Assembly: GCA_963971285.1 (NCBI GenBank)
Contig: OZ020248.1
Coordinates: 9,858,001 to 9,922,000, forward strand
Source: Astropecten irregularis
Taxonomy: Eukaryota; Echinodermata; Asteroidea; Paxillosida; Astropectinidae
Length of the DNA: 64,000 bases
Direction of reading: 5' to 3'
A program made the translations under genes and the position numbers. Shown one piece after another: positions 41,693-61,345 of this stretch. Every line of letters begins with the position of its first letter. Within the stretch, counting starts at the first letter, position 1. The notes beneath the pieces are model-generated. The model worked only from the letters and a program-made list of their open reading frames with translations. It was not told the DNA's origin and did not search any database.

Positions 41693-41977
41693 TTTTTGTA
41701 AAATCTAGTAGTTATTTCTTTAAATCTTGCATCTGAGTGACATCTTGCATCATGAATCTTGAGTCATGTCGCCATTCCTGAAATCTGGACCTGCATGTAT
41801 TCTTGAAGGAGAGTGCGAAAAAATGAAATTAAAAAAAAGAAAATGGATTTCATCTTTTGGCAGTAATCAACAGACTTGAATATAAATCTCTTTTGGGATG
41901 ATTTGGTGGTCCTGAAAAGGGCCATTTTGTTGGTGGTGGTAACCCTGAAGAATCTTCCATCTTGAAACGTCGATCTT

Positions 41978-42105
41978 GGATCTTGAATCTTGAAACTTGG
42001 ATCTTGAAACTTGGATCTTGAAACTTGGATCTTGAAACTTGGATCTTGAAACTTGGATCTTGAAACTTGGATCTTGAAACTTGGATCTTGAAACGTGGAT
42101 CTTGT
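41978..42105. repeat. 14-bp minisatellite
   Basis: About eight head-to-tail copies of GGATCTTGAAACTT, almost perfect in the middle and diverged at the edges (GTCGATCTTGGATCTTG). Period 14. Confidence 0.85.
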
Positions 42106-42809
42106 ATCTTATCTTTAATTTTGCATCTGGAATTAGTAAAAATAAATTTGTTAAAAGAAGTTAGTTTAAAAAAGATTTAGTTACAACGAATGAAATACGG
42201 TAGTCCATGCGATGTTCCGCTTCATTTTGCCGGTAAATAAAGTGGCAACACTATGAGGAAGGTGGTGTCAACTTTTCAAGGATGATCTGACCTGTTTCTT
42301 TCATTATTTGATCATTTCCTGAAGTTACCTGGATGATTTCAACCTCTGACATGATGCGGGAACCAGCTTTGCCGTAGTAAACATCCAGACCTAGATCCAG
42401 ATCCAAATCCAGATCCAGAGTCGACTAAGTAATAAAATACAAAATATAGCAGCACAAATTCCTATAGGCCCCTAGCCTTTTTATAGGCCTAAAGTAACGT
42501 TAACCCCTTCTTACTCCATGAAAAATCGCCTAAATATAATGATATTTAGGTTAGACTAAGCAGTACTACTCACTTAAGAAATGAAACGTTGTTGGTCTTA
42601 TTACTCCGATTCCTGCAGCCAAAGGCTGCGAAATTTTTGGCATATCAAGCCAATGCAAACACACGTCACAGCCAAACGCGAAACGTAAACATAACCCCAT
42701 GAATGCGCATTTTGCATTTTTGCCCACTTAGAAAAATGGCGGCCAATTCTTCAATTCGTGACGCGACAATTCAGAGGTGCGCCCTCTAGTTTTTTAATAT
42801 AACTCTATG

Positions 42810-44042: not shown

Positions 44043-47000
44043 ATGTTTGAGAGCTCACGGTTGATCTACGAGGCTATGGTGGACAGGATGGATCCGAACA
44101 TAGTGGGGATACATCCTTCACATCCAACCCACGGCATCGACACCATGACCGGGCACCTCACCGCCGACAGCATCGGGGGCTTCCAAGCGCTTAGGAGTCC
44201 GGGAACGGTGGAAGGTTTCCAGGTGTCCAGAACGCCACCGGTGTGCAGCTCCGGTGGTATCAGTACGGTGCGAGGTGGCAGTGTCCTAGCCGGGGCAGGT
44301 GGTGTTGATGTCGGGGCTGCTGCGACCGGAGGTTCGGTGAACCATCACGGGGCTGCCAAGCAGAACTCAAAGCGACGGTGTGCCGTCTGCAAGGGCCTGG
44401 CCACGGGCTACCACTACGGCGTGGCCTCGTGCGAGGCTTGTAAGGCCTTCTTCAAACGAACTGTTCAGAGTAGGTATAGACCCTATCATTCCAGCTGAAA
44501 ATATATCAGAAATTATAGGTAAATCGCATCATATACGGTAACACCAGCCAACGGTACGCCACCAATTTCTGGAAATCTTGAAATCCCACAATCTACAGTT
44601 AAAGACGCACTTAGTGCCGTATTGGTAAGGATAAAAGCATCATCAAATACCCACAAGGAAACTGACTGCATTTCAAGTCATTGAAAAGTGAACAAAGAAA
44701 AAATGGCTCAGTGGAGTGGATTCGAACCGGCTACCTCCTGAATACCGTTCAGGCGCTCTACCAACTGATCCAGCCCTATACGTTGGTGGTGTCCTATAAT
44801 CAATTATCTTTTTTCGTTTTGCGGTCAGAAACCATGAAACCACTCACATACCGCAATATCCCATAATATAGTGGTTCGAATCCCGCTCTAGTCATTTTTT
44901 CGTTGTTCACTTCTTTTCAATGATAAAAACATAAATAGTTGTGACTAAATACGAAATTAAGACATTAATTTTATGACATTTAATTTGACATGCAGTGTAC
45001 GTATATTCAATTTAATACGAATTTAAGACATTAATTTTATGACATTTAATTTGACAGTTGTAAGTGTATTCAATTCGATGAACTGGCACATTATTTTTGT
45101 CACATGCAGAGCAACTCACTTACTCGTGTCAGGAGAAGCGGCAGTGTGAGATCTCCCATGGTAACAGACGAACGTGCCAGGCTTGCAGGTACGAGAGATG
45201 TCTTGCAGAGGGCATGTTGATTGACGGTAAGGAGGCCCATCAACGCAACCCCTCATATTTGGTTGTATACAGTCGCAAATTTTCAGTGTTTCCACGTGGG
45301 AATAGTCTTAAAAAGCTTGTAGTCCTATTTTAATACTCACATAGTAAGATGGCAAGTTAGCAGCTGCAGTCTTAAATAGGCCTGTAGGCCAGACTAGGCC
45401 TACGCACATAGCAAGATTACTAGTTAACAGTCAGTTCACAGTTTAAGCTCAGGTCCTATATAAATTATGCTTGGTTTGAAAATTGCATTGTTTTCAATGT
45501 CTTGTGTGAGTATCCTCTGGATCCAATCCAGTCTGAAACTTTCGATCGAAAAGCCTACTTAGAAGATGCAGCAGTCCGCCCGGGAATGTTGATCAGTTTT
45601 AAGCTTCATCTTGAAGCTTTATACTCGGCTGCGATCCAAAGTCCTTTGCTCCTTGAATATAGAGATTCATGAGAGTATGATCTTCAATCGGGATTTTGAC
45701 ATTCATAGATTGAAGACATTGAAAAAAGGCAACTCTTCATCAACCGGGAAGTTGCCGAAATTTTGAAACCCTTCACTGGGTGAAATATCTTCAGTAGACG
45801 GCATGCATGTCATCCACTCCAACCTGCCCGACGTTCTCCTCTTTGAAACAAAAAAGGCGCTCCACCATCCATCATCAGTAAGGGGGCTTACACGGAGATG
45901 CCTTTTGTACATTATAGGTGTGAGGATCAATCGGAATAAAGGCGGACGACAGGAGTACAGACGCCGACCTGATGAGAGAGACTTCTCCCCTGCCACGTCG
46001 GGCAAGAAGCGAAAACACAAGCAAGGTACGCGATTCCCGATGTATGAGAGAGCCTACGAAATACCAGAGCCTATTTCATAGAGCTGCATAAGCACCGAAA
46101 TTTGTTAAGCACCAAAGACCTTGGTAAATAGAATCAGTATACCAGCCACAGCTCCTTATGAATGTTATGCTCAGCAGACAACGGCCGAATACTTATCAAA
46201 AACAGTCAATATCATTTGAGCACTGCATACTTAGTGCTTGTGAGACCACGTGAAAACAATCACATGCTGGCTCAGGCGGGATTCGAACCAAAGAACCTCC
46301 TGCTTACGAGTGCAGATGCCATACCGCTAGGCCACCGAGCTAGCTATAGCTAAAGTTTGTGCTTAAGCAGCTCTATGAAATTGGCCCCTGGCCCTTCTCA
46401 AAGACTTGATGACTGTGGGCCCAAGGGGACATTAATACAATACACGAAAAATATATAAGAGAAGCACAGAGGGAGACATGGGTGTAGCAGCAGAAGAAAA
46501 CAGAAGTTCAAGGGTGGTGAATTGGCAAAGAAAAGTAGTGGTACAGTCAACCAGAAATATCAGAGGAAAGTGGAAAGTGACAGACAAACCCAGGCTCAAA
46601 GGAAGACGCTAAAAAGTTGTATGAATTATTGGGAAGAACGAAAACATTTAATGTAGAACAAGGTTAGGAGAAAATATCTCCCGGTCCTTCACAGGACCAC
46701 ACACCTTCCATAAAGAGTATACATGGTGTCTCCACAAGCCTTACATTGTTCTAGTCTCTCTACCATGCAAACATTCAAATCCTAGCAGTCAATGTAAAAA
46801 CTCAACCGAGAATAGGAAGATGGGCTGGTGATGGAACGTTTAGTGTAATTTAGGCTGGATATAATGCACCTAGTCTGAGATACTCGAAAACTCAAACATT
46901 CACGTAGACTTGGGGCCAAGTCTTTCTAAGTCCGGGTGATTGTCTCTTTTTCCACGCAACTCTTTTTGAGTGGTCCCGGGCCGAGAGCTGAACTCTCGCC

Positions 47001-50000
47001 GTAGCCACGAGTCTCGGGCGGTGTCGCGAGAGGTTCGTGAAAAAAGAGACAATCACCGCGACTTATAGAAAGACTTGGCCTCAAGACTAACATTAATGCC
47101 GCAGTATTGCAGAGTGGGTGAGCCGCATACCTCACCAAGTTCATAACTGGTAGGCTCACCCTATTTCATGAAATGTCCCGATGTCAAGAGACACAGAGCA
47201 TAATGACACTTACAGTGACAAAGGACCATGAGAAAAAGGAACGTTCCTACAGCTTATCGGTTTCTGTTTCACTTATGCGTCATGATTTTATCTGGTTCTG
47301 ACGGACCTCCAACAGCTATGGAGTTTGCTCAAAGGCTTTTGGAAATCGACCCGGAGGTGCTGACGATCAAGGTGCCCGATGAGATCAAGAAGTGCTTCGT
47401 GTCTGCCAGCGACGTCAGGGACAAGAGCTCAGAGATACCCGGCATGCAGATGATGGCCGAGATCGCCGATAAGGCCTTGATCACCACGGTGCGATGGGCC
47501 AAGAAGGTGCCAGGTAGGCTAATCGAGTTTGCTGGCAATTTTGGTGAACTCATCTTAATAATAATAATATAATGATAACAATTATAATGCGCCGGTATCC
47601 GCCAAGCATGACGCTCATGGCTCAACTTAATTATTATCCCTGGTCATCGGGCCATAATTTTACATTCCTGAAACCATCTCAACTTCCTAGGGAGTATACA
47701 GCCCCGGTTCTCGTATTCAGCGCACAAAGCCATCTCTACCCTCGCAGGTACCCATTTATAAACACCTGGGTGAAGAGGAGCAATATGTGACAAAGCGTCT
47801 TGCCCAAGGATACAAGCACCACTAGCCCATGGCTGGACTCGAATCCACGTTCTGTAGATTGACCACAGGACTTTGAGTTCAACACGCTAGGCCACAGCAC
47901 CCCACGTCTTTGGTTGTTGCTGTTGTTGTTCGTCATTGCTGCTGTTGCTGCTTCTCCTGCTGCAGCCTCTGCTGCTGTTGCTGCTGCTTCTGCTCGTGCA
48001 ATTAAATGCAGACGTTGAATTAATTTAGAGGCGCCTGTGTGTCATGTCAACCACAAATTCCAAAAAGGCAAAGATTACAACCACAACATCAGACCAAAAT
48101 AAAGACTAATGTTGGATGCATCTTAATGACAACTATATGGGGTGGCATTATCATGCTGAGTGGATTCATGGCTTCTGACTGGCCATTAGCGAACGAGGGT
48201 AGTTGACAATTCGGGACACACATCAGAGATTGTTTCAATACATTTATTTCAATGCTGCCACATATTTACAAGAACAGAATAATACATATAATACAAGAAT
48301 ATGTCATATCATAAGATTATCAATACATAATTATAGTAAATAACTTAGACAACTTGGCAACATTTAGGCATAGGGTGAAGCAGAGCTTTTGTTCCCTGGC
48401 CTAGGGACAGACAAACAAAAGACGGGACAAGAAAGACAAACATGAAATGACAAACATATACACAACACACAGTTACAGGTATAAGAAAGAAAGCATCACA
48501 GTTAATTGTTATCTCTAAATTTGTTCAATTGTAATCACATAGAATGCGTGTTTTTAGTTTTTTGGTAAAGATAGAGAGAGTGGGTGATAATTTTTACAGT
48601 ATCATCTAAACTATTCCAATATGATGTGCCACGTTGGATTACACTGTTTTTGTACAATGAGGTTCTACTATAGTGGACAAAAAGATTTTTCCTTTTAGTA
48701 CTGCGAGTATTATGAGGATGTATATTTGAGGTTAGGGTAAAACAGGAATTGAAACAAGCAGGTAGTGAATGATTCATAAACTTATACATAAATTTTCCTA
48801 AATAAAGATGGTACAGGTCATCAAATTTTAATAATTTTAGATTTCCAAATAAAGGACCAGAATGTTCACGATACCCGGTGTTAGAAATAACGCGAACAGC
48901 TCGTTTCTGCAAACGAAGCAGTTTGTGGTATTTAGAAGTGGAACTAGATTTACCCCATGCCAGAACCGAGTAATTTAAATACGGTAAAATAAATGAGTTG
49001 TACAAGGTTAATAATACAGTACTAGGTAGACAATATTTTAAACGATTCATTATACCAATATTTTTTGATATTTTAGCTGCTATATCGTCAATATGATTCT
49101 TCCAAGTAAGATTTTCATCAATATGTATTCCCAAAAATTTAGTGTTCTTCACCTGATTAAGATTTGCACCATTTAAAATTAAAGGAGCAGACTGAGTATA
49201 TTTATATTGACTGGCACAGAATATCATATAATTTGATTTTTGTACGTTAATGCATAGTTTGTTGGCTAAAAGCCAAGTAGTGATTTTCCGAAGTTCAACA
49301 TTAAGGTTCAGGACTGCTAAATCTACGTTTTTGTCCGTGTACAATAAACTTGTGTCATCGGCAAATAAGCAATAAGTAATAAGGTCTGATGTATTGCAAA
49401 TATCATTAATGTATAATATAAATAATAAGGGGCCTAGCACGGAGCCCTGGGGTACACCGGAAGTAATGGCACGATGGGTAGATTTTACCGAATCATACAA
49501 AACATATTGGTTTCTGTCACATAAATAACTTTTAAACAGGTCTAGAGCTGTTCCACGGATACCATAATGCTCCAATTTACGAATCAAGATATCATGATTA
49601 ACGGTATCAAATGCTTTTGATAGATCCAGGAAAATACCAACCGTAAAATTATTATTATCTATTGCATTACATATTTTGTTTACTACAAAAGATGTCGCCA
49701 AATCAGTAGAACGATTACGTCTGAAGCCAAATTGTGATTCTGACAAGATCTCATGCTTATTCACAAAAGATATTAATCGCGAATAGATTAATTTTTCAAA
49801 TAGTTTTGAAAATACTGATAAAACAGAGATGGGTCTATAATTTTCAATGTCATGTTTACTGCCTTTTTTATGTATTGGTGTAACTTGTGCCGTTTTTAGC
49901 CCATCAGGAAACACTCCAGCTAATAGAGACTTATTAAATATGTCAGCCAGTGGTTTAGCCAATGAATACGTAGCCCGTTTTATAACAAAAGAACTTAGTT

Positions 50001-51569
50001 CATCAAAGCCAGGAGCCTTGCCAGAAGGAAGTTTGTTCAGATTATCCACTATCTCTTGTTGCGTAATGAATAGCTCAGTTAGTAGTTAAGGGCACTGGAA
50101 GGGTACGCCAAGGGTCGTAAATGTGAATTCTGTTCTTGTCAGTATTCTTGAATGGTTCGAACGAAAACTGAAGAGGCCTGACTCTCTCAATCCTGCAAAT
50201 CATCTCGGCATACTTTCTCAGTGACATCGAAAGTTAGTTGATAGGATTCCAAATTCTCAACTCACGTCTGTTTTTTCCTCAGGGTTCGATCGGTTGTGCC
50301 TTAACGACCAGATGGCCCTGCTGTGCAACTCCTGGATGGAGATCCTCCTCCTGAACGTCATCCATCGCAACTCCCTCCTGCCTGCAGTTGATGAAGGTGG
50401 CGGCATCGTCATCTTCGCCAGTGGTCTGGTCGTCTACCGGGAGGACATGTGCTCGCCTCAGCGGAGCGTGTCTCCGCTCATATTCGAGCAGATCTCCAAC
50501 GCCGTGGATCGTCTTCGGCCCCTCAAGCTGAGCAAGAACATCCTGGTCATCCTGAAGGCCATGGTGCTCTTCAACTCGGGTATGAAAAGATATCAGTTTC
50601 AGAGGATGTCAGAAGATGACACTTCTTTGAATGTTTGTTTCTTGGGCCATAAACCCTCTTTCTGAAGAAGGCATAGTTCATGTGGAATGTGCTACTGCAG
50701 TTTAAACCACATGCAATCACGCAAGTAGTCATAAAACTATCTAGCCGTTAAGAGCTGCAAAATTTCCAGGTACAATAAACAAAATGGCTGTTTTGAGTAC
50801 AAGTAGCAAACTGCTGATGCCAAATTGTTCACCGACCAAAATATGTACGTAGCATGCAACCTTTCAACAACTTTAAGATTGATCTGAAAACACACTTATT
50901 TTCTCTTCACTTCCATTAGTAATCATCTTATTTTTCCAGATTATTCCTATTGATGCGCATTGTATCCATTGGCAAATGCGCTTTATAAATCGTGGTATTA
51001 CTATTATCATTATTACATGAACGTGCTCTTAGTTTGGAGGGCCTGACGTTTCGATCTCAGCAAAATCTCTCCAGAGGCTGAAGGTTGCTCATTGTATTTC
51101 GATTTTAAAACTTGGGATTATCTTATTCTTAACTGGAATCTACTGTATGCCCTTCCTTGATCCGTGTTTCTCGTTCCTTCGTGACTTAACCTGTCTTACA
51201 GGTCCGTCTCTGTCGAACCGGCTCCCGTTGAAGTCCCAGAAGGAGCTGCAGGAGATCCGGTCCACCATCCACGATGCCCTCCACTACCGCATCCAGCACG
51301 AGCACCCAGGCAACACCCGCCTGGTCTATCACCTCATGATGCTACTGCCGCTCATCAAGGACACGGCCCTAACCATCTCCAGCCTGGTCTGGAGCGAGTT
51401 CAACAGGGAGCAGGTGCCCATGCAGGACCTGCTTCGTGAGGTGCTGCAGCCCATTTTGCAGACCAGCGAGAGGAACCACCAGCCCAAGACGCGATGCAGG
51501 GGAGACCAGACTGAGATTCCCTCCAGTGACCAGACCTTGCTGACCTCTGAGCTTCAGAACACAACCTGA
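44043..51569 (+). CDS. NR3-type (ERR-like) nuclear receptor A
   Basis: There are six coding exons: 44043-44469, 45110-45226, 45918-46025, 47316-47513, 50283-50579 and 51202-51569 (TGA). They sum to 1,515 bases, 504 aa, all introns phase 1. The first ATG of the open segment is used. Residues 1-115 are a Gly/Ser-rich A/B region. The DNA-binding domain has both zinc modules (C-x2-C-x13-C-x2-C; C-x5-C-x9-C-x2-C), P-box CEACKA as in ERR, and extension [11 protein letters not shown], which in ERR reads bases 5' of the half-site. The ligand-binding domain shows [20 protein letters not shown] (the NR signature), and helix 12 DLLREVLQ fits an AF-2. In the helix-3 ADKEL-type position the glutamate of ER/ERR is alanine (ADKAL); the helix-5 arginine is kept (VIHR). 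It is probably a nuclear transcription factor on TNAAGGTCA-like sites. Closest known group: NR3 (ERR-like); exact subfamily open. Confidence 0.92.
44675..44935. mobile_element. tRNA-like foldback element in receptor A intron 1
   Basis: TCATTGAAAAGTGAACAAAG at left is the reverse complement of the right end (GTTCACTTCTTTTCAATGA with a small insertion). GGATTCGAACCGG and GGTTCGAATCCCGC are box B-like words in opposite orientations. Confidence 0.7.
46070..46387. mobile_element. MITE family C copy containing a tRNA-like insertion
   Basis: It runs from GCCTATTTCATAGAGCTGC to AGCAGCTCTATGAAATTGGC. At about 46255-46345 on - is a tRNA-like module: GGTGGCCTAGCGG (box A-like), GGTTCGAATCCCGCC (box B). 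Receptor A intron 3, about 45 bases after the exon 3 donor. Confidence 0.65.
46655..46790. mobile_element. Penelope-type terminal repeat fragment
   Basis: CATGGTGTCTCCACAAGCC resembles CATGGTGTTTCCGCAAACC at the end of the Penelope-like element at 16968 and the foldback at 51855. Only the end is recognisable. Confidence 0.35.
47575..47905 (-). mobile_element. tRNA-derived SINE, family 2
   Basis: On -: GGTGCTGTGGCCTAGCGTG (box A-like), GTGGATTCGAGTCCAGCC (box B), then CCTTGGGCAAGACGCTTTGT and a TAATAAT tail at the low-coordinate end. Copies: 54325-54605 (-) and 57455-57785 (+). It begins about 60 bases after the exon 4 donor of receptor A. Confidence 0.7.
48232..50088 (-). mobile_element. 5'-truncated non-LTR retrotransposon in receptor A intron 4
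   Basis: The element is antisense to the receptor. The reading frame opens at about 50085 with no endonuclease domain, i.e. a 5' truncation typical of LINEs. A 3' UTR of about 300 bases follows the stop and ends near an AATAAATG word at about 48236-48245 on -. The exact 3' end and target duplication were not resolved. Confidence 0.7.
48535..50049 (-). CDS. Non-LTR reverse transcriptase, N-terminally truncated ORF2
   Basis: The uninterrupted frame has about 504 codons. Reverse transcriptase blocks are in order: [17 protein letters not shown] (about 70-86), [11 protein letters not shown] (105-115), [13 protein letters not shown] (140-152, catalytic Asp142), [14 protein letters not shown] (197-210), [10 protein letters not shown] (227-236, catalytic Asp231/232) and [12 protein letters not shown]. 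The C-terminal domain follows to the stop. It looks like the Jockey/CR1/L2/Rex1 group, with the clade unresolved. The first codon at 50049 is GTG inside an open frame continuing to about 50085, so this is not a native start. The absence of stops suggests a recent insertion. Confidence 0.88.
   Translation of the reverse strand: MDNLNKLPSGKAPGFDELSSFVIKRATYSLAKPLADIFNKSLLAGVFPDGLKTAQVTPIHKKGSKHDIENYRPISVLSVFSKLFEKLIYSRLISFVNKHEILSESQFGFRRNRSTDLATSFVVNKICNAIDNNNFTVGIFLDLSKAFDTVNHDILIRKLEHYGIRGTALDLFKSYLCDRNQYVLYDSVKSTHRAITSGVPQGSVLGPLLFILYINDICNTSDLITYCLFADDTSLLYTDKNVDLAVLNLNVELRKITTWLLANKLCINVQKSNYMIFCASQYKYTQSAPLILNGANLNQVKNTKFLGIHIDENLTWKNHIDDIAAKISKNIGIMNRLKYCLPSTVLLTLYNSFILPYLNYSVLAWGKSSSTSKYHKLLRLQKRAVRVISNTGYREHSGPLFGNLKLLKFDDLYHLYLGKFMYKFMNHSLPACFNSCFTLTSNIHPHNTRSTKRKNLFVHYSRTSLYKNSVIQRGTSYWNSLDDTVKIITHSLYLYQKTKNTHSM
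50850..51017 (+). mobile_element. LINE 3' end fragment in receptor A intron 5
   Basis: The first part translates to [12 protein letters not shown], like the end of L2/CR1-type ORF2, followed by GCGCATTGTATCCATTGG, AATGCGCTTTATAAAT and a TATTATCATTATT tail. Confidence 0.55.
51020..51100 (-). repeat. Hammerhead-like repeat remnant
   Basis: On -: CTCTGGAGAGATTTTGCTGA followed by GATCGAAACGTCAGGC. The GAAACGTC end and preceding CTGGAGA recall the core of the Penelope-type repeats, but the CTGATGA block is not intact. Confidence 0.3.
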
Positions 51570-52200
51570 GGAAGTCCTGGAGCCGATTTCACGAAGCACT
51601 AAGATTGATCTGAAGTGTGAATCAATTATAATTGCTAAGTAAAGTGTGATGTCACAATGCAAATCACTACGGCAATACTGACAACTCATCTTAAGATCAA
51701 AGTTAGTGTTTGGTGAAATCAAGCTCAGGACAGCTTCCCCCAGCCTGCATCAGCAAGCAACGAGCCTCGAAGAAACTGCAGAACTTAGTATTGATACATT
51801 TCCAACAATAATTTTGTAGATAAGACTTGAAGCTATGCATGGTGGAAGTAGTAAAGTAAGGTAGGTTTGCGGTGACATCATGTAATCTGTCACTCTCCTG
51901 AGGACGAACAGAGCACACACTGTTCGGAACGTCGAGTTAATACCAACGGTTCTTCTCAGAACCACACACTCTCACAGAAGAGATTACATGGTGTCACCGC
52001 AAACCCACCTTAAATTAATAATTTTGTACAAATGTTTTAATTTTGCAAATGTTTGTGCTAAGCAGCGCCGTGAAATTGGTATCAGGAGTCACAAGACTTG
52101 ATTGCTAATAATTTATTTGAAGGGCTAAAATTATTTTTGTACATAGCAATTTACTCAGGCTTCAACACATTTCACAAAATGTCTCCCTATTGACCGGTGT
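51570..52200. other. Receptor A 3' flank with two foldback repeats
   Basis: About 51581-51727 is an imperfect foldback: GCCGATTTCACGAAGCACTA at left against TTAGTGTTTGGTGAAATC at right. About 52040-52082 is a family C terminus (TTTGTGCTAAGCAGC, CGTGAAATTGG). The 3' UTR of receptor A probably covers part of this. Confidence 0.5.
51855..52012. mobile_element. Penelope-type foldback with hammerhead-like core
   Basis: GGTTTGCGGTGACATCATGT at left is inverted at right (CATGGTGTCACCGCAAACC). Between them on + lies CTGAGGAC, GAACAG, loop AGCACACA, CTGTTC, GGAAC, a perfect 6-bp stem in the position of hammerhead stem II but with altered core bases. It is related in plan to 16968-17517. Confidence 0.5.
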
Positions 52201-53091
52201 CTCCAAAATGTTAGCTTTCAGATGCTAACCTGTCTCATTCTGCAATTTAGAAATATATATACATTGTATATAAATATATATAAATCTCATTTCTTATATC
52301 GTTTTTATGTGTTCTTTTTGATAAATTTAGTCAAACTGTGGCTAACTTTTATGTCAATTAAAAAGAAAACTACTGACATAAATGGAATAATCAAAATTGT
52401 AATCGCGAGATAAAAAAAAAATGAAGACAGACTTGTTCTAGATAGATTTTCTGCCGTTTTAATGAACTGATGAAAATAATGTTAGTTAAAGTTTGGTGCC
52501 AATAATATTGCATAACTTGCTTGTAAATACTAGTCCTGTATTCATAGACAGAATTGTTCTTCGTTTACAGAGGATCTATATCCGATTGGTAACAATCCAA
52601 CCGTTGTGGTGAAATGGGGTGCTATTTATTCTATCGGTGCCGTTCATAGTTCGACGAGGCATTGCGACCTATCGAGTGTTTGGACTTCAGTCATGGGGCA
52701 CTTTATCGATGGCAGCCGGTACACGAGGGCCCCATTTTGATGCCTCGGCTTCGGAATCGTCTCCGTTATACAGAAAAGCTGACAAAAAAATAGGTCGCAG
52801 GCTCAGCTGCAAAGCCTAAGCCTTGTTTTCTTGTTCAGAGTGTCTAACTTCTAATCCGTATCCAACGAGGATCTATTTTTTTTTTTACAGTGTAAAGTTC
52901 CCTAATTTATCAGGGATGCCTCATCTATCTCAGTTTTCAAGAAACTTCTCAAAATTTTCCCTTGTTTCATTGCCTAATTGGTAGTCACGTGCGGCTACTC
53001 TTTGTATCTTTAATTGTTTACTTTCCTTGTACATAACTTTGATCTTCCTATGTGCGCTATTTGGCCCTTTATTATCATCAATATATTAAAA
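52201..53091. other. Intergenic between receptors A and B, nothing recognised
   Basis: AT-rich, with short unrelated open frames. No exon or repeat family assigned. Confidence 0.4.
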
Positions 53092-53350
53092 GTCATATCA
53101 TACTTTGTTTTGTTGTTGTTAAAGAAATGCAGATTCATGAGCAAACATATCAAGTAACATACAGGAACAGTCATCTGTGAAATTGTGCAGTGCCACAAGG
53201 TGCCGACCTTTGGAGAAACCAGTGAAAAACGCCCACAGCATTTTTAAAAACCTTTTCACCGTTATTTGTGATCTTTAAAAGATCAATCTTGTTTTTGGTA
53301 ATTGATTTTACTCATTTCTGGATAAATACAACATTTCAGGCAGACATATT
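53092..53350. mobile_element. MITE family A left part
   Basis: CATATCATACTTTGTTTTG start, AGTCATCTGTGAAATTGTGC, GTGAAAAACGCCCACAGCAT, ACATTTCAGGCAGACATATT. It stops where the next copy begins, at a TTAA that in other copies is internal. Confidence 0.65.
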
Positions 53351-53711
53351 TTAAAGGTAGTATCATACTTTGGAAAGAAACCAAATTGAAACCAGATTTA
53401 CGTATATTATTACAGGGTATGAAGATGGTGGTGGTAGAAACATACCGTTAACATTTTTTCCGCCTGAAATTGTGTATTTATCCAGAAATATAGTAAAATA
53501 ACGACCGAAAATATTTTTCATCTTTTAAAAGATCAAAAATAAAAGAGAAAATAATTAAAAAATACTGTGCCTGTTTTTCAATGTTTTCTCAAAAAGTGGG
53601 CATCGTATGGGACTGAAATGTTCACAGATGACTGTTACTGTATCCGTCTTGATATTGTGCCCATGAATCTGTATTTCTTTGATAAAAACCAAAGAATGAT
53701 ATTACCTTTAA
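53351..53711. mobile_element. MITE family A copy, near complete
   Basis: TTAAAGGTAGTATCATACT start, AAAGAATGATATTACCTTTAA end, TTAA at both ends. Opposite orientation to the fragment it abuts. Confidence 0.8.
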
Positions 53712-54176
53712 CCTGACTACCGAATTGTATAATGGGCAAACATTTTAAATACCGAATAATATCCAATGCTTTGTTATAAGTCTGAGATTCAATTGTTTGT
53801 AAATAAATGTTATATACTGTAAATAGTACACCTTTGTGTCCCGTCATGGTTCATTTCCTGCCTGCACGTAAATCCTTCTAATCACAGTGGCCCTGTAGAG
53901 ATAAAACAGTCCAAACCTCTGAACGACGGTACGACATCCAGGTAAGTAAAGGTTGTCAGCGTCAGACCTTATAGGTCCAGATGAGACACATCTCTGAGAC
54001 CTCCATGCCTTGGTCTCTGACTATCGGGTCTCAACTGCATACGACACTTCATCTTTCGCCTTGCACAACTTCATTGCATCCTTTAATTATAATAATAATA
54101 GATGTACAATGTATAGGGTATTTACATTGTGCATATACTCTATACTGTGCATTACAAAATGTTTTATCATCCCTGG

Positions 54177-54324
54177 GGTCGATTTCACCAAACTCTTCGT
54201 AACTTACTATCAATCATAGGACTTTTGATGCATTGAAGACATAGGTGGAATAGGCCCCCTACGATGGGTTATCCTTCGTAATTCGAGTTACAATCGATCG
54301 CAGGGCTTCGTGAAATCAACCCCT
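54177..54324. mobile_element. Foldback element family D
   Basis: GGGGTCGATTTCACCAAACT at left against CTTCGTGAAATCAACCCC at right, with CCTACGATGGG in the middle. Fragments of a similar element lie at about 55620-55735 (CGTAGGGCTTC). Confidence 0.55.
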
Positions 54325-54605
54325 GGTCATCGGGCCATAATTTACATTCCTGAAACCATCTCAACTTCCTGGGGAGCATACAGCCCCGGCTACCGTATTA
54401 ATTTAAGTGCACAGATGCATAATCAAACCACAAAGCCATCTCACATGTACCCATTTACATGGGTAAAGAGGAGCAATATGTGACAAAGCGTCTTACCCAA
54501 GGAACAAGGACACAAGCACCATTAATCCATGGCTGGACTCGAACCCACAATCTGTAGGTTGTGGGCGTTCGACATGCCAGACCACTAGGCCACAGCACTC
54601 AACAT
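54325..54605 (-). mobile_element. tRNA-derived SINE, family 2
   Basis: On -: GCTGTGGCCTAGTGGTCTGG (box A), GTGGGTTCGAGTCCAGCC (box B), CTTGGGTAAGACGCTTTGTC, then the shared body. The copy is split: TATAATAATAAT tail-like sequence sits at about 54085-54110, with the family D foldback in between. Confidence 0.65.
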
Positions 54606-54928
54606 ATTCAAACAGTCTTGCCGAAATTCAACAAATGCTAGTGTTCTCTCCTGCCTTTTTTGGTGTTATTGCTGTATATGACGATGAGTGCAGATGTATG
54701 AAATACCTACTTCAGTTCACCATCGTGCCACCATTATTATCTAATCTGCACCCAACCATCGGGTCATATTGACTCGCGTAAAGCACCATTCTACCAGCAC
54801 AGAGTGGAACCACTGCATTTTGCTTTTTAAAACTTGCTCAACACATTGCGTCATATTTTAAGAGGACCCTGCGTCAGACGAGTTGACTATTATTAGACCG
54901 TTACTTGGATGAAAACAAAACAAAACAT

Positions 54929-54952
54929 ATGTCATGGATTTTGACATTGTGA
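54929..54952 (+). other. Upstream ORF overlapping the receptor B start
   Basis: An ATG five bases upstream of the receptor B start, in a different frame, encodes seven codons before TGA. It could reduce initiation at the main ATG (54934), whose context (GTCATGG) is better. Confidence 0.4.
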
Positions 54953-57900
54953 CGGAGTACGAGAACAGTGTGAACTGTGACCAGTTGAGAGAAAGAGGGT
55001 GTTCCGACGCCCAGTTGATCAGTACCGAGAGAAGACAGAAAGCGGACGGGTTCACCGGCGATGAATCACCCACGATTCGCACCGATGGCTCGGCGGTGGA
55101 GCCTCGGCGGCGTCTGTGCTCGGTGTGCGAGGGGCAGGCCACCGGATACCACTACGGCGTCCCGTCTTGCGAGGCGTGCAAGGCATTCTTCAAGAGAACC
55201 GTCCAAAGTAAGTTGGAATTTGGGACAATTGCTGGTTTGTTTTGAAGTTTGAGTTCATACAATTAATCTACTCTAAAAGCGACCCTTTCTAATGCTGAAA
55301 ACCGTGTTCCACTAAATATTTGAAATAAGCAACGTAGGCCTCCCATAGGCCTACTCAAGTTATCATTGGAGAGTTATCAAAATAATTATAAATAAAACAC
55401 AATATTACGAAGAGCAGAAAAAAGACCAGTAAAAGACACGAGATAAAAGGTCAATGAAGACGGTTTATAAATATTCAAAGGAATGAAAGTGGAAATCCAC
55501 GATTTTAAAAGACCATGTGTGTGTATAGTGATGTCCTGGCTTGAGCATAGATGAGGTTAGTTGTAGAGAACTAAAGCAAGAGCAAAACGGTATGGGGAGG
55601 GGGGGGGGGGGGGGGGTCACCAACCTCACCGTAATCGTAGGACTTATGTAGCCCCACGTAGAATTAAGTCAAAGGATACGACGGTTTATCCTTCGTTTCT
55701 CGAGTTACGATCAATCGTAGGGCTTCTATTTTAAACCATTGAAAGGTGAACAAAGAATTGACTGGAGCAGGATCCGAACTAGCGACCTCCTGAAAACTGT
55801 ACAGGGGCTCCACCAACTGAGCTATCCAGCCCTATCAGGAGGTCGCTGGTTCGAATCCCTCTCCAGTCAATTTTTATTTGTTCACCTTTCAATGACTAAA
55901 ACATTCAGTCAGCTTCCCTTGTGGTATAATGATGATTGGATTAAATCAAACTCCTCTTGTGTTATAATAATCATCATTGATGCAGTGTTCCGGCGTCTCC
56001 CTGCAGGAAACCTGAGCTACACCTGTACCGAGGACGGCAAGTGCGAGGTATTTCACGGCAAGAGACGGACGTGTCAGTCATGTCGCTACGACAAGTGCAT
56101 CGCCGTGGGTATGATGATAAACGGTAAGAGCTTCAGTTTATATCAGGCCCACGAGATTGATAACTTGGTGTCCTGATGAGGTATCCTGATAAGGACTAGA
56201 GCAGGCTAGTCGAAACGTTGAGACCTTACGAGAAGTGCCAACGAAATAGAAGTGCGAAAGTACGAACGATTCTTACATGGTGTTTCCGCAAACCGATCCC
56301 CATAACTTGCTGTGTTCTTGGGGGAATGATTTGGAGGGTTTGGCTCCGAACTTCCTAGATTATAGAAATAAACTCCTCTTTAAATTATTCCTATCGATTC
56401 CGTTTTTCAAGCCCTCCAATAATCCATTACAATTTCGAAGAAATGTTTCGCATTATACCATCTACACCGGACAAAACCACTTCCAGTGTAGCACTGTAGC
56501 TTACGGGTGCACCACACTAAATAGCTCAAAAATCAATGCGCCGAGCTGCTTATCATAATGAGTGTACCCTCAAATGTTATTTAAATATGCAATTTGGGGG
56601 GTCGTGCAATTAATATATTGTGTAATTTTGACTGGTTATGACAACCTGGGGGTTCAGTGCTTCAGCTTGTTGTGGAGACTTGAGATATTTTGGTTTAAAA
56701 TCTGGTCCTACATTGTCTTGAACGTGGAGGGTTGCTTCATGAAAACTCGTAGCAAGTCGGTTACGGAAAAAGCACATTTCGGGGGTGTTTTTTTCTTGGG
56801 GCAATTAGCAAAAAATCCAATCGGTTACCCATCCAAAAAGTGAAAAGAATTGGATAGATGAGAGTTCACACTACCATTTACACTATTGCACCAACAACTG
56901 AGAAACTTCTGGATGGGGTTTTTTGAACTGTGAAGTTGAGGGATTTTACACTAAGGTCAATGGGACACTATTTAGTGTGGTGCACCCTTACGTACATGAC
57001 GTATATTTGAGTAGGGCGCCCTCTGTCAGCGGCAAGAAGAAGACGGCTTATTGTGGCTGGCCTATACCAGAGGGCGTATCTTGTGAGATACATGGCCCTC
57101 TATCAAATTCCTCGGCTTGGTTTTTGGCCCCGCTCCCTTTGGCTCACATCCATTCTTCCATTCTATTCTTAATCCCGGTATCAAATTTTAGATGTCTCAG
57201 TACGATTTTGAAGTAGGAAGTCCATTATTTTATAAAACTTAGGAAAATTGAGCTTTTTTGTGGATCTGTCTTTTCAGTTTTGAATGACAAAAACGAACGA
57301 AAATTTTTGGAGTCTAAGCCATGGTCGTCATAGGCCACAGCTGTGCGTTGTGTTTTAGTTGTCTCATCAACGTTTCGCGTGCTAAGATGGCGCCGTGATA
57401 ACGTCAGAACATCAGGTCTTTTCCAATTTGCCAAATAATAGTCTTGTGTGTTGGGTGATGTGGCCTATACGGTGGTCTGGCGTGTCGAACTCAAGATCTT
57501 GTGGTCAATCTACAGATTGTGGGTTCGAATCCAGCGCGATGGGCTAGTGGTGTTTGCGTCCTTGGGCAAGACGCTTTGTCACACAGGTGTAAATAGGCAC
57601 CTGTACAGGTAGAGGTGGCTTTGTGGTTTGATTAGCCTCTGTACGCCCTACGGTAGCCTGGGCTGTATGCTCCCCAGAGAGTTGTGATGGCTGAGGAGTG
57701 GCCCAATGACCAGGGATAATAATAATGTGCAGCGCTTTGATCTTCTTGGAAAGACGCTTTATACAAATGCTCGATATTATTGTTACGTGTATCATTATCA
57801 TTATATGAATATCGTTGGATACCCACAGGTGTTCGACTGAACAGAAGCAAAGGAGGACGTCAAGCGTACAGACGGAGACCAGATGAGCGAGATTTCATCT

Positions 57901-60900
57901 CCAAAACAACGAGGAAGAAGCAGGCGACAAATAGCCGCTGTAAGCAAATCCAGATCACAGAATTGAATTTGACGACAGCCATATGATAATGAATTATGAC
58001 GACGGGTGACAGAGGCGACAACAACGGTGACAACATAATGACGGTGACATTGACGATTGACGTGGTATACCGATCTTGACGATGACTTGCCACAGGCCTA
58101 GGTGGTCTGTTTTGTTTAAAGGTATAATACATGATTGGTAAAGGTGACAGAACAGCACGCACACATTGTCTGATCCAGAATGTACATGAAAATGTGAGCT
58201 CAATCGGACATCTGAGTCTGAGTCTGAAAGACCGACTAAATTTTTCTTATAAAACACAAAGTATAGTTTTGATCCTACCCCGAGATCAAAACTGTTTTTA
58301 TTTCTGGATAAATACACCATTTGAGGCAGACACATTTTAACGGTATGATTATTATTTATTTCTGGTAATGAAACCAAGGATCCCCCAAAAGCGCCTAGGC
58401 ACTGTAGCTCGAAAGCCTGATGAAACCTTTTATGGAAAGATGATGAGAAGAAAATACAATTTTAGAGGTGGGAGGAAAACCCCAGAGTAATATTCTGGGT
58501 AAAACCCACATAATCAGGCAGGGACTGAAAAGCCAATCTAAAAAGCTTGTGAACCGATCCAGACTTGAAGCCGGTCCACAGAAGTGAAAAGAAAGGAAAG
58601 AACCGCTGCGCCAACCTGACTTCTACCAGCACCATCTTCATATCCTGAAAGTAATACGTAAATCTGTGTTTGGGTATGTTTAATACCAGTCTTGTACTGT
58701 ACCTTTAACATCGAAGAAGCGACCCATTGGGATGATCAGCTGCAGGTATTGGTCTCTCGAGCCTGATTGCAATGGGAGACTTTTGGAGAGTCGGTCTTGA
58801 GTCAACAGCGCACGCGCAATCCATGCTTGCGCAATTGTGAGCATGCGCGCGTGGTATTGCGCGTGCGTGCGCGTGCGCTGTTGACTCAAGACCGACTCTC
58901 CAAAAGTCTCCCATTACAATACCATTTTGCAGCCGTCGCAGACTTCTGCCAGCGGCTTCTGGAGATCGAGCCCAGCATGCTGAAGATGACCCTGCCGGAC
59001 GGAGACTGGGGCACCGGGGCACCGCGTCCCGGCAGGACGCCGATGCAGAAGATCTGGATGGAGCTGATGGCCGAGGTTGCTGACCGAGCCCTGACCACCA
59101 CCGTCCAGTGGGCCAAAAAGATTCCAGGTGAGTGTCATTTTACATGACGGTCAGCGGGTCACCTATATTGACCTCATTCAAGATGTTTCCATCCTACATT
59201 AATTTGAAGCAGTGCAATCAAACCGAGGCTTGGGTTCAAAATAGTCTGGTACCCGTTTTCTCTTAAGAATTGGTGTTACCTTTTCCAACGGGTACACAGA
59301 AAGGTGACAAGATGGATGCGCCGTCAATAAGGCATATTGCCATGCCCGATGTAGACGTCAGCATGTACACACCGTGTCTCTTGTTTACGAACATTTTTAG
59401 CACTTACACGCATTCGTACGGGAAGTCATAAGTCATTACGAAGTTGTCCACTTCCATGTGATCTTCGTAAAAAGCAAAAGCATCTCAGTGCTATATAACA
59501 AAATAAATCGTGTCGAAGGACTTGCAGCAAATAGACTTTTAGCGCTCAGTAAATAATATTTATAGCAGTTTTGTGGAATTGGGCAGATTCTGAAATTCTA
59601 CCCGTGAATTGATTGATATCCCAGGCTTCGACAAGCTGTGCCTGAACGACCAGATGGCCCTCCTCTGCAACTCCTGGATGGAGATCCTCTTAGCCAACGT
59701 GATCTACCGCTCGTCCCAGCTGCCCCAGAGCGAGACCTGCTCCATGATCCAGTTCGCCGACGGATTCATCATGACCAAGGAGATGGCTAAGGGCACGGAG
59801 AGGGGCCCGCTCATCTTCAACCAGATCGCTAACGTCGTGGACAGACTGCGAGAGCTGCATGTCAGCAAGGGCATCATGGTGATTGTCAAGGCCATTATAC
59901 TCTTCAACTCCGGTGAGCTATATACATACCGATCGCGACTTAATGCTACCATTCCACACAGTCTACGAATCCCACGAAATACCACGAATTGATAAATGCT
60001 AGCGTTCGTATTAATCAGTTCTTGAAGCTCTAAACTATTTCATATGAATTCGTATTCAGTTCTTGTAATTCCTGAGCAAATCGGGAATTCGCTCTGGCGA
60101 AAGTTTTGAACTGTTCCAAGTTTTGGCCACGTATTCCCGATTGAAAGAAATCGCAGTTAAGTCGTAATAAAATCGTCGGGCATTCTTAGACATCGTAGCT
60201 GAATTGTGGTTAATTCGTATAAAGCAGTCATGTGTATTCTTACCTCTCATTCGTGGATTCGTGAAATCGCGTCTTGATCACGAATCATATACGAATCACA
60301 CGCAGTGGCGTCACCAGCCTTTTGAGTCTGGGGGGGGGGGGGGGGGGGCACAAGGGGGGCACTAGCAATTGTTTTTTTTTTTTCACCAACCCAAATCTCA
60401 AATGGGGGGGGGGGGGGGGGCACGAGGTTTTCCAGGGGGGGGGGGGGGGGGGGTACGTGCCACCCCTGGCCCCCCTTGGCGACGCCACTGATCACACGAA
60501 TACACATTACACACCAGAGCAGGTGTAAAGCAAATCTAGTTGATGCATCCGCCATTTTCTTAGCTGATTCGTATCTGATCTTTGACGTTTGTACAAATCT
60601 TCGTAATTGAATATTGTAAATCGTAGTAGATCCCAGACATAAAACCCGAATAGAACCGAATCCTCACGAATCCTAAGAATTGATCAATTCGTGGCAATTC
60701 GTGAGTTAAGTAGCCTGTGTGGAAAGGGGGCATTAATGCAACTATTCACTCTGAACTATGAACTCTGACTATTTGGACCGAGCAGGACTCGAACTTGTAT
60801 CTTCGTAGTGTTTTATTTGTTTATACAGTAAATAATGATTTCGAATTTGAAAGAAATAGAAATACGAATGTGGAATATTAATTTTTGTTGTTGAAATCTT

Positions 60901-61345
60901 GACACAAGGTCCGTCATTGGCCAATCGACTCACCTTGCAGTCTCCTGACGTGGTGCACGACCTGCAGACGACGGCCTACGATTCCCTGCACTGCCGCATC
61001 CACCAGGAGCACCCGGGCGACTACCGACTGGTCTACCGTCTGCTGATGGTCCTGCCTCTCATCAAGGACGTGGCCGTCACCGTGGCCACCATCGTATGGA
61101 TCGAATTCAAACAGGAGCAGGTCTTCATGCAGCAGCTTCTCAGCGAGGTGGTGCGACCCATCCTGCAGACCAAGATGGGACAGGTGGCCGTGACCCAGGG
61201 AGGTGATGCACCGGGCACGGAGGCTGCAGGCGGCGGGGTGGTGGATCGGGCTAGCGAAGGGGCCACCCTCGAGCAAAACCTTAAGGGAGGGCCAAGCTTC
61301 TACGAGGAAGAAAGAGAGAAAGTATGCTCATCATCATCGAATTAG
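54934..61345 (+). CDS. NR3-type (ERR-like) nuclear receptor B
   Basis: There are six coding exons: 54934-55207, 56007-56123, 57829-57939, 58933-59127, 59625-59912 and 60909-61345 (TAG). They sum to 1,422 bases, 473 aa, all introns phase 1 at the same places as receptor A. The A/B region is short (about 60 aa). The DNA-binding domain is intact with P-box CEACKA and [11 protein letters not shown] extension. By eye, 48 of 71 domain positions equal receptor A. The ligand-binding domain has [20 protein letters not shown] and helix 12 [10 protein letters not shown]. At the helix-3 position where ER/ERR have glutamate it has alanine (VADRAL), while the helix-5 arginine (VIYR) stays. A Gly/Pro-rich insert ([13 protein letters not shown]) sits between helix 1 and helix 3. 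The C-terminal tail after helix 12 is long, about 60 aa. It is a tandem paralogue of A; ligand unknown. Confidence 0.92.
55735..55905. mobile_element. tRNA-like foldback element in receptor B intron 1
   Basis: ATTGAAAGGTGAACAAAG at left is inverted at right (TTGTTCACCTTTCAAT). Two box B-like words (GATCCGAACTAGCG and GCTGGTTCGAATCCC) face each other, with GGCTGGATAGCTCAGTTGG on - between them. It is the most symmetric copy. Confidence 0.75.
56165..56290 (+). mobile_element. Penelope-type terminal repeat fragment
   Basis: GGACTAGAGCAGGCTAGTCG and GAAACGTTGAGACC, then GAAGTGCGAAAGTACGAACG and GGTGTTTCCGCAAACC, match 17436-17517 and the foldback arm. The hammerhead block reads CTGATAAG instead of CTGATGAG. 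It starts about 45 bases after the exon 2 donor of receptor B. Confidence 0.6.
56300..57450. other. Receptor B intron 2, nothing recognised
   Basis: Apart from the flanking repeats, no family was assigned. The 90-97 codon open frames show no known motif. Confidence 0.4.
57455..57785 (+). mobile_element. tRNA-derived SINE, family 2, most complete copy
   Basis: GATGTGGCCTATACGGTGG (box A-like), GTGGGTTCGAATCCAGC (box B), CCTTGGGCAAGACGCTTTGT, GACCAGGGATAATAATAATG, and a 3' end AGACGCTTTATACAAATGC with ATTATTGTTA. The end lies about 45 bases before the exon 3 acceptor of receptor B. Confidence 0.75.
58118..58709. mobile_element. MITE family B copy interrupted by a SINE
   Basis: Left part 58118-58344 (TTAAAGGTATAATACATGATT to TTTTAACGGTATG). 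The right part 58622-58709 resumes with TCTACCAGCACCATCTTCAT and ends at GTACTGTACCTTTAA. Receptor B intron 3. Confidence 0.75.
58345..58622 (-). mobile_element. tRNA-derived SINE, family 1, inside a MITE
   Basis: It shares TTTATTTCTGGTAATGAAAC, GCGCCTAGGCACTGT and CGCCAACCTGAC with the copy at 23931-24240, in the same orientation (head at high coordinates). The box B part is more eroded here. Confidence 0.7.
58766..58920. mobile_element. Palindromic element family P at a splice acceptor
   Basis: ATTGCAATGGGAGACTTTTG at left pairs, with one mismatch, with CAAAAGTCTCCCATTACAAT at right. The arms are nearly perfect (GAGAGTCGGTCTTGAGTCAA against TTGACTCAAGACCGACTCTC). Only 12 bases separate its right end from receptor B exon 4. 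Confidence 0.8.
59205..59330. repeat. Interspersed repeat, inverted copy of 5441-5570
   Basis: GCAATCAAACCGAGGCTTGG, TTCAAAATAGTCTGGTACCC and GGTGACAAGATGGATGC are the reverse complement of the segment near 5441-5570. Confidence 0.55.
60303..60492. mobile_element. Foldback element with CAGTGGCGTC ends and long G-runs
   Basis: CAGTGGCGTCACCAGCC at left and CTTGGCGACGCCACTG at right. Between are three runs of about 15-20 G and the complementary-type GGCCCCCC tract. Receptor B intron 5. Confidence 0.65.

Follow-up and report, generated by a model that had tools for sequence, protein, structure and literature searches.

The window analysed here, a 64-kb stretch of contig OZ020248.1 within the 475.7-Mb, 168-contig genome assembly of the starfish Astropecten irregularis, contains two tandem nuclear receptor genes of the NR3 type, both of which carry alanine at the helix-3 position that is glutamate in the oestrogen receptors (ER) and the oestrogen-related receptors (ERR). 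The genes, termed A and B, lie head to tail on the plus strand with 3.4 kb between them. Gene A (44043–51569) comprises six exons, begins with an ATG at 44043 and encodes a product of 504 residues, while gene B (54934–61345), also of six exons, encodes 473 residues and its stop codon ends at 61345; the span of 44043 to 61345 given in the original prediction therefore coincides with the actual ends of the pair. In each gene all five introns are GT–AG and in phase 1, with matching positions in A and B, and neither gene contains an internal stop. The first exons and start codons of both genes are gene models from sequence alone. The exons are arranged as follows (window coordinates).

44043–44469, plus strand: gene A exon 1, N-terminal region plus the first zinc finger and its P-box, CEACKA (open reading frame, GT donor, zf-C4 match)
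45110–45226, plus strand: gene A exon 2, second zinc finger with D-box CQEKRQC (AG/GT sites, phase 1)
45918–46025, plus strand: gene A exon 3, C-terminal extension and hinge
47316–47513, plus strand: gene A exon 4, start of the ligand-binding domain and helix 3, in which ADKAL has Ala for Glu353
50283–50579, plus strand: gene A exon 5, helices 4–7 with the Arg394 equivalent within NVIHRN
51202–51569, plus strand: gene A exon 6, helices 8–12 with Leu at His524, Glu at Met528, the AF-2 Glu retained, and the stop codon
54934–55207, plus strand: gene B exon 1, N-terminal region plus the first zinc finger and its P-box, CEACKA (zf-C4 match)
56007–56123, plus strand: gene B exon 2, second zinc finger with D-box CTEDGKC
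57829–57939, plus strand: gene B exon 3, C-terminal extension and hinge
58933–59127, plus strand: gene B exon 4, start of the ligand-binding domain and helix 3, in which ADRAL has Ala for Glu353
59625–59912, plus strand: gene B exon 5, helices 4–7 with the Arg394 equivalent within NVIYRS
60909–61345, plus strand: gene B exon 6, helices 8–12 with Ile at His524, Glu at Met528, the AF-2 Glu retained, a long C-terminal tail and the stop codon

Both products match the Pfam domain zf-C4 from end to end (90.9 bits for A and 93.7 bits for B, cut-off 21.1) as well as Hormone_recep (68.4 and 79.5 bits, cut-off 23.5), and they are 70% identical to each other in the DNA-binding domain (DBD) and 55% identical in the ligand-binding domain (LBD). 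The P-box reads CEACKAFF in both receptors, in agreement with the ERR-type CEACKA first assigned to them, and the C-terminal extension follows the pattern GGRQ-x-Y-x-RR, which is that of ERR (GGRQKYKRR type) and differs from that of ER. Comparison of the DBDs with the PDB gave 120.7 bits with ERRalpha, 88.3 with SF1 (the best NR5 match), 84.4 with RXRalpha and 83.9 with ERalpha for A, and 119 bits with ERRalpha, 97.2 with the best NR5 match, 83.4 with RXRalpha and 85 with ERalpha for B, placing ERR ahead of the next family by 22–32 bits. The D-box, which is CPATNEC in ERRgamma, is altered to CQEKRQC in A and CTEDGKC in B. Given the ERR-like P-box, extension and DBD scores, A and B are predicted to choose the same DNA half-site as ERR, with altered dimer contacts in the DBD; since the extension is conserved but the D-box has changed, both receptors would bind the ERR half-site TNAAGGTCA mainly as monomers. 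This element occurs at four sites in the 64-kb window compared with 2.3 expected from mononucleotide shuffling, which is no notable excess.

Residues of the ligand-binding pocket were read from an alignment of A and B with 11 human receptors (the numbering is for ERalpha). In ER, phenolic steroids are anchored by a glutamate, an arginine and a histidine. The position of Glu353 is occupied by Ala in both starfish receptors (ADKAL in A and ADRAL in B), and in the PDB alignments these motifs pair without gaps with ADREL of ERRbeta at this position. Arg394 in helix 5 is retained in both, His524 is replaced by Leu in A and by Ile in B, and the Met528 position is Glu in both; all four readings are the same in five of five MAFFT settings, so that the loss of Glu353 and His524 and the retention of Arg394, as initially noted, hold in full. 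Further pocket substitutions in A/B are Leu346 to Met, Thr347 to Ala, Met421 to Ser/Gly, Gly521 to Ile/Val and Leu525 to Val. The charge clamp of activation function 2 (AF-2), Lys362/Glu542, is intact in A and B. A crude tally of side-chain volume over 23 pocket positions gave 3405 for A and 3349 for B compared with 3591 for ERalpha and 3552 for ERRgamma; the sum is not raised and does not support filling of the pocket as a mechanism. A Phe at the position of ERRgamma Asn346 was discarded as a possible pocket plug since ERalpha has Phe there too, and a predicted structure of the A LBD (aligned with five sequences of further receptors from this genome) had a mean pLDDT of 49.7 and a pTM of 0.34, making it unusable for pocket geometry.

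Over 447 aligned codons, the nonsynonymous (dN) and synonymous (dS) divergence between A and B is 0.41 and 1.78, respectively (dN/dS ∼0.23), with dS near saturation. The corresponding values are 0.39 and 1.07 for the LBD (dN/dS 0.36), while the DBD has a dN of 0.17 and a saturated (infinite) dS. Divergence of this size indicates that A and B are not haplotypes of one gene, and a dN of 0.41 against a dS of 1.78 fits purifying selection, by which both genes seem to be kept. It is highly improbable that the two are degenerate or misassembled copies without function: their divergence is strong and intron 4 of gene A holds a LINE-type reverse-transcriptase open reading frame, but 12 of 12 exons are open, the splice sites are all canonical, dN/dS is low overall and in the LBD, zf-C4 is matched end to end and the AF-2 clamp is intact in both. 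Because both copies share the pocket changes, the simplest account is that these changes predate the tandem duplication.

The assembly was searched for other NR3 receptors in four ways. A search with zf-C4 yielded 57 matches among 68 candidates, all 57 of which were read, and CEACKA is found in A and B only. With the human ERRgamma DBD as a query there were 56 matches among 60 candidates, of which the highest in identity is the first exon of gene A (74% over 35 residues); the first exon of gene B reaches 63% over 41 residues, full DBDs reach at most 58% and short finger pieces at most 70% over 23 residues. The best of 31 genome matches to the human ERRbeta LBD is exon 5 of gene B (41%). The A LBD as a query produced 17 matches, six of which are exons of A and B; the next match (E value 9e-7) belongs to a receptor with P-box CEGCKG, and no third copy of A/B is present among the 17. 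A canonical ERR, ER or steroid receptor (SR) was not found in the 475.7-Mb assembly by these searches, which score best candidates only, and A and B are thus the only NR3-type receptors found; a separate canonical ERR in the same genome had been proposed as a check. The assembly is not generally poor in receptors, since RXR-, COUP-, HNF4-, NR4-, NR5- and NR6-like receptors are also present (by eye). With a DBD and extension of ERR type and no separate canonical ERR found, the simplest reading is that A and B fill the ERR slot.

Two other loci were considered as NR3 candidates and rejected. The one at C21:10868758, a possible third NR3-like gene, carries the P-box CNGCSG and looks to be of NR2E type (by eye). 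The other, a CEACK finger at C8:6309285, is interrupted before a Ser and lies in an apparent two-DBD receptor. The latter locus (C8:6300037–6309407, minus strand) encodes two successive DBDs, with CEACK followed by SFFIRS and then CEGCK followed by GFFRRS, and resembles the echinoderm two-DBD receptor, for which the P-boxes EACKS and EGCKG are given in PMC10497141. At C25:2889407–2889553 lies a segment similar to NR3 helices 3–5; a DBD whose P-box is CEGCKG stands some 9 kb away, at C25:2880414. Three DBDs at C8:34039297, C8:12185262 and C25:1881848 have an odd sequence after the P-box (CESCKSFFGRK, CEGCKSFFLRS and CEGCKTFFRRN, respectively) and a common CVMDLY/CSMDLY motif, and are perhaps a lineage-specific group. 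Three TLX-like DBDs (NR2E type, by eye) with near-identical first fingers at C12:18.87–18.95 Mb and 22.42 Mb constitute an apparent expansion.

Trees of 13 rows, containing A and B with human references only, were calculated for the DBD, the LBD and the two combined. The pair falls inside NR3, with ER, ERR and SR and against RXR, HNF4 and LRH1 (support 100/98.6 on DBD+LBD, 96/96 on the LBD and 95/95 on the DBD), as the NR3-like LBD of the original prediction had implied, and A and B are joined with support of 100/100 on DBD+LBD and 96/94 on the DBD alone. The best LBD match in the PDB is ERRbeta for both receptors: A scores 81.5 bits with ERRbeta, 78.8 with ERRgamma and 70.9 with RXRalpha, and B scores 82.2 bits with ERRbeta, 79.8 with ERRgamma, 75 with the Estrogen receptor chain 7nel, 68.4 with ERRalpha and 66.6 with RXRbeta. 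A tree that unites the pair with the ERR clade is not the best tree but is not rejected by the approximately unbiased (AU) test (p = 0.355 on the LBD, 0.487 on the DBD and 0.475 on DBD+LBD). On DBD+LBD, constraining the pair to ERR costs 0.09 log units (AU p = 0.475), compared with 0.84 for ER+SR (p = 0.376) and 4.39 for ER (p = 0.159). The pair can be described as divergent NR3 receptors with ERR-type DNA binding that are probably co-orthologues of ERR.

Several observations weigh against this assignment. The best DBD+LBD tree places the pair outside ER+ERR+SR, with weak support (56/53), and the AU tests reject no placement of the pair within NR3; the reference sequences are human only. LBD identity is no higher to the ERRs (27–29%) than to the ERs (26–29%), and a PDB chain named 'Estrogen receptor' (9d8q) matches the A LBD with 80.4 bits, near the 81.5 bits of ERRbeta. 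Phe404 and Phe425 are as in ERalpha, compared with Tyr and Asn in ERRgamma, and the D-box of A and B is unlike that of every NR3 reference used. The dS between the copies, as given above, is near saturation, and an assembly gap could hide a canonical ERR from the genome searches. A possible though doubtful alternative is that the pair represents an old NR3 branch of its own, distinct from ERR, ER and SR, which was kept in echinoderms whereas ERR itself was lost; the EACKA P-box and the extension would then be traits inherited from the NR3 ancestor. The unrejected best tree, with its long shared stem (1.38 changes per column), would fit such a branch, as would the presence of EACK-type P-boxes outside ERR (EACKK and EACKS in two-DBD receptors and EACKS in sponge receptors, as described in PMC10497141) and the similar extension of NR5 (RGGRNKF). 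However, a separate branch requires an extra loss of ERR, its tree support is low (56/53), the length of the stem makes attraction to the base of the tree a real risk and the DBD scores favour ERR by 22–32 bits over the next family. Since the trees do not decide for the ERR clade, and since A and B have neither Glu275 (ERRgamma numbering) nor an ERR-type D-box, they are not filed as confirmed ERR members. The suggestion of a divergent NR3 branch, not plain ERR, thus stands as regards divergence, the LBD being only 26–29% identical to ER and ERR, while a separate branch is one possibility and the DBD is clearly of ERR type; in the phylogeny, neither grouping with ERR (AU p = 0.36–0.49) nor a position outside it is rejected.

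The explanation favoured here, with confidence that only modestly outweighs doubt, is that A and B are co-orthologues of ERR, arranged in tandem and evolving fast, which have kept DNA recognition and coactivator binding of the ERR type but are unable to anchor phenolic steroids. Glu353 and His524 are gone from the pocket, Arg394 is still there and position 528 is now Glu; these pocket changes would have arisen before the tandem duplication, and coactivator recruitment would proceed much as in ERR with no phenolic ligand needed. As the phenol-anchoring Glu and His are absent from both receptors, binding of phenolic steroids of the vertebrate type is unlikely. A and B probably work without phenol-type steroids or answer to another molecule, which is close to the different ligand or none proposed at the outset, and basal activity without a classical hormone would be the most likely case. 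According to PMC2199305, 4-hydroxytamoxifen and bisphenol A (BPA) are held in human ERRgamma through their phenol, by Glu275 and Arg316; these two residues are described in PMC13234766 as gatekeepers of a larger merged pocket, the double Ala mutant taking up no BPA. Replacing pocket residues of ERRgamma, Glu275 among them, by Ala is reported in PMC4076284 to have only moderate effects on constitutive activity, with His434Ala keeping ∼70% of it. From these mutant data the starfish pair would be expected to lack tight phenol binding and yet be able to stay active.

The unpaired Arg394 equivalent could accept a keto or anionic group. An arginine without an acidic partner suits such groups, as in RXR, HNF4 and the SRs. 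That A and B are ligand-gated is unlikely. In this reading the pocket would be open, Arg394, lacking its Glu partner, would bind a keto or anionic group, for instance a fatty acid or the 3-sulfate of a starfish sterol, and Glu528 would hold the far end. The unpaired Arg and the new Glu are present in both copies, the side-chain volumes do not point to a filled pocket and classical asterosaponins carry a 3beta-sulfate (PMC7760246), all of which would suit a ligand. Pocket conservation between the copies is equivocal. With a list of 24 residues (ERalpha positions based on ER structures), A and B are identical at 20 of 24 pocket positions, compared with 101 of 181 elsewhere (p = 0.007) and 34 of 59 in the rest of the core (p = 0.02). 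The pocket is thus the better kept part, as in ERalpha/ERbeta (22/24 versus 105/181) and unlike in ERRalpha/ERRgamma (15/24 versus 107/170); the other pairs give 15/24 versus 113/170 (ERRalpha/ERRbeta), 21/24 versus 136/170 (ERRbeta/ERRgamma), 17/24 versus 93/178 (GR/PR), 18/24 versus 94/179 (AR/PR) and 15/24 versus 90/178 (GR/AR). With the 19 ERRgamma residues named in PMC4076284, however, the signal in A/B is gone (13/19 versus 108/186, p = 0.27) but still present in ERalpha/ERbeta (18/19 versus 109/186, p = 0.001), and it comes from one pair of copies. Because the signal depends on the residue list, this hint is treated as weak and the main conclusion is not rested on it. A bolder and distinctly improbable version is that a sea-star (perhaps echinoderm-wide) ERR was rebuilt as a duplicated sterol sensor of reversed polarity, in which Arg394 would bind the 3-O-sulfate and the helix-11 Glu528 the other end of starfish sulfated sterols; the classical starfish asterosaponins are described in PMC7760246 as 3beta-sulfated sterol derivatives.

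The helix-3 Glu and helix-5 Arg form the anchor common to ER and ERR pockets, and they are drawn on in arguments about whether the first NR3 receptor bound a steroid. An animal in which the only two NR3-type genes found both lack the helix-3 Glu represents a natural Glu-to-Ala experiment, which suggests that ERR-type genes can stay under selection without this residue. It offers a test of whether ERR is active without a phenol-binding pocket or is able to take a new ligand, and bears on whether echinoderm responses to oestrogen and bisphenols can run via nuclear receptors at all.

Elsewhere in the window, a Pfam scan of six open reading frames outside the receptor exons gave the reverse transcriptase as its sole match; this LINE-type frame (516 residues; RVT_1, 5.9e-39) lies at 48535–50085 on the minus strand, antisense to gene A. 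Two coding-looking frames to the left of gene A, at 19150–19593 (plus strand) and 17055–17411 (minus strand), have no Pfam match, and a short tandem array at about 41850–42176 (minus strand) reads as (F)KIQVSRSKFQDPS repeats in more than one frame. In the remainder of the assembly, the 16.3-kb contig C168 is the mitochondrial genome, with ND1 and ND2 on the minus strand and a COX1 whose conserved STNHKDI segment needs AAA as Asn and ATA as Ile, as in table 9 (genes assigned by eye). This code, which flatworms share, in combination with such an inverted block is characteristic of sea stars and points to an asteroid. A long open COX1 (552 residues, standard code) at C131:32162–33484 is probably from a bacterial contaminant or symbiont, and a second mitochondrial-type COX1 with seven TGA codons, at C25:9951047–9952018 on a large contig, is probably a nuclear mitochondrial insertion.

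Beyond the vertebrate groups, NR3 includes NR3E (cnidarian) and NR3F (placozoan), as listed in the review PMC7827873, which also states that invertebrate deuterostomes carry single ER and ERR genes; this statement is not fitted by the present genome. The sea urchin lacks ER or any other steroid receptor according to statements in PMC2529310 and PMC2527136, and one sea-urchin transcriptome contains a transcript annotated as ER (PMC8632358). In sea cucumbers, an 'ERR-like' contig of 205 residues (H. scabra) has a brachiopod ERR as its best match at only 3e-41 (PMC7838161), and two 'ER-like' proteins (PIK58758.1 and PIK52234.1 of A. japonicus) were excluded from a tree owing to low homology to known ERs (PMC10295501); from these two cases, divergence of NR3 genes may be widespread among echinoderms. 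No prior description of the missing Glu in echinoderm ERRs was found in a limited look at the open-licence literature, which is weak evidence of absence.

Compared with the oxosteroid receptors (NR3C), A and B are similar in having Arg394 and no Glu353 (NR3C has Gln there), but they lack this Gln and the P-box CGSCKV and are only 19–24% identical in the LBD. With ER (NR3A) they share the NR3 LBD, Phe404, Phe425 and Arg394; they differ in the P-box (CEACKA instead of CEGCKA), in the extension and in the reduction of the Glu353/Arg394/His524 triad to the Arg. Relative to ERR (NR3B), Glu275 and His434 (ERRgamma numbering) are absent, Asn346 is replaced by Phe, the D-box is QEKRQ or TEDGK and not of the PATNE type, and the LBD is just 27–29% identical to the human ERRs, whereas the CEACKA P-box, the GGRQxYxRR extension, the NR3-type LBD, the helix-5 Arg and the AF-2 clamp are those of ERR.

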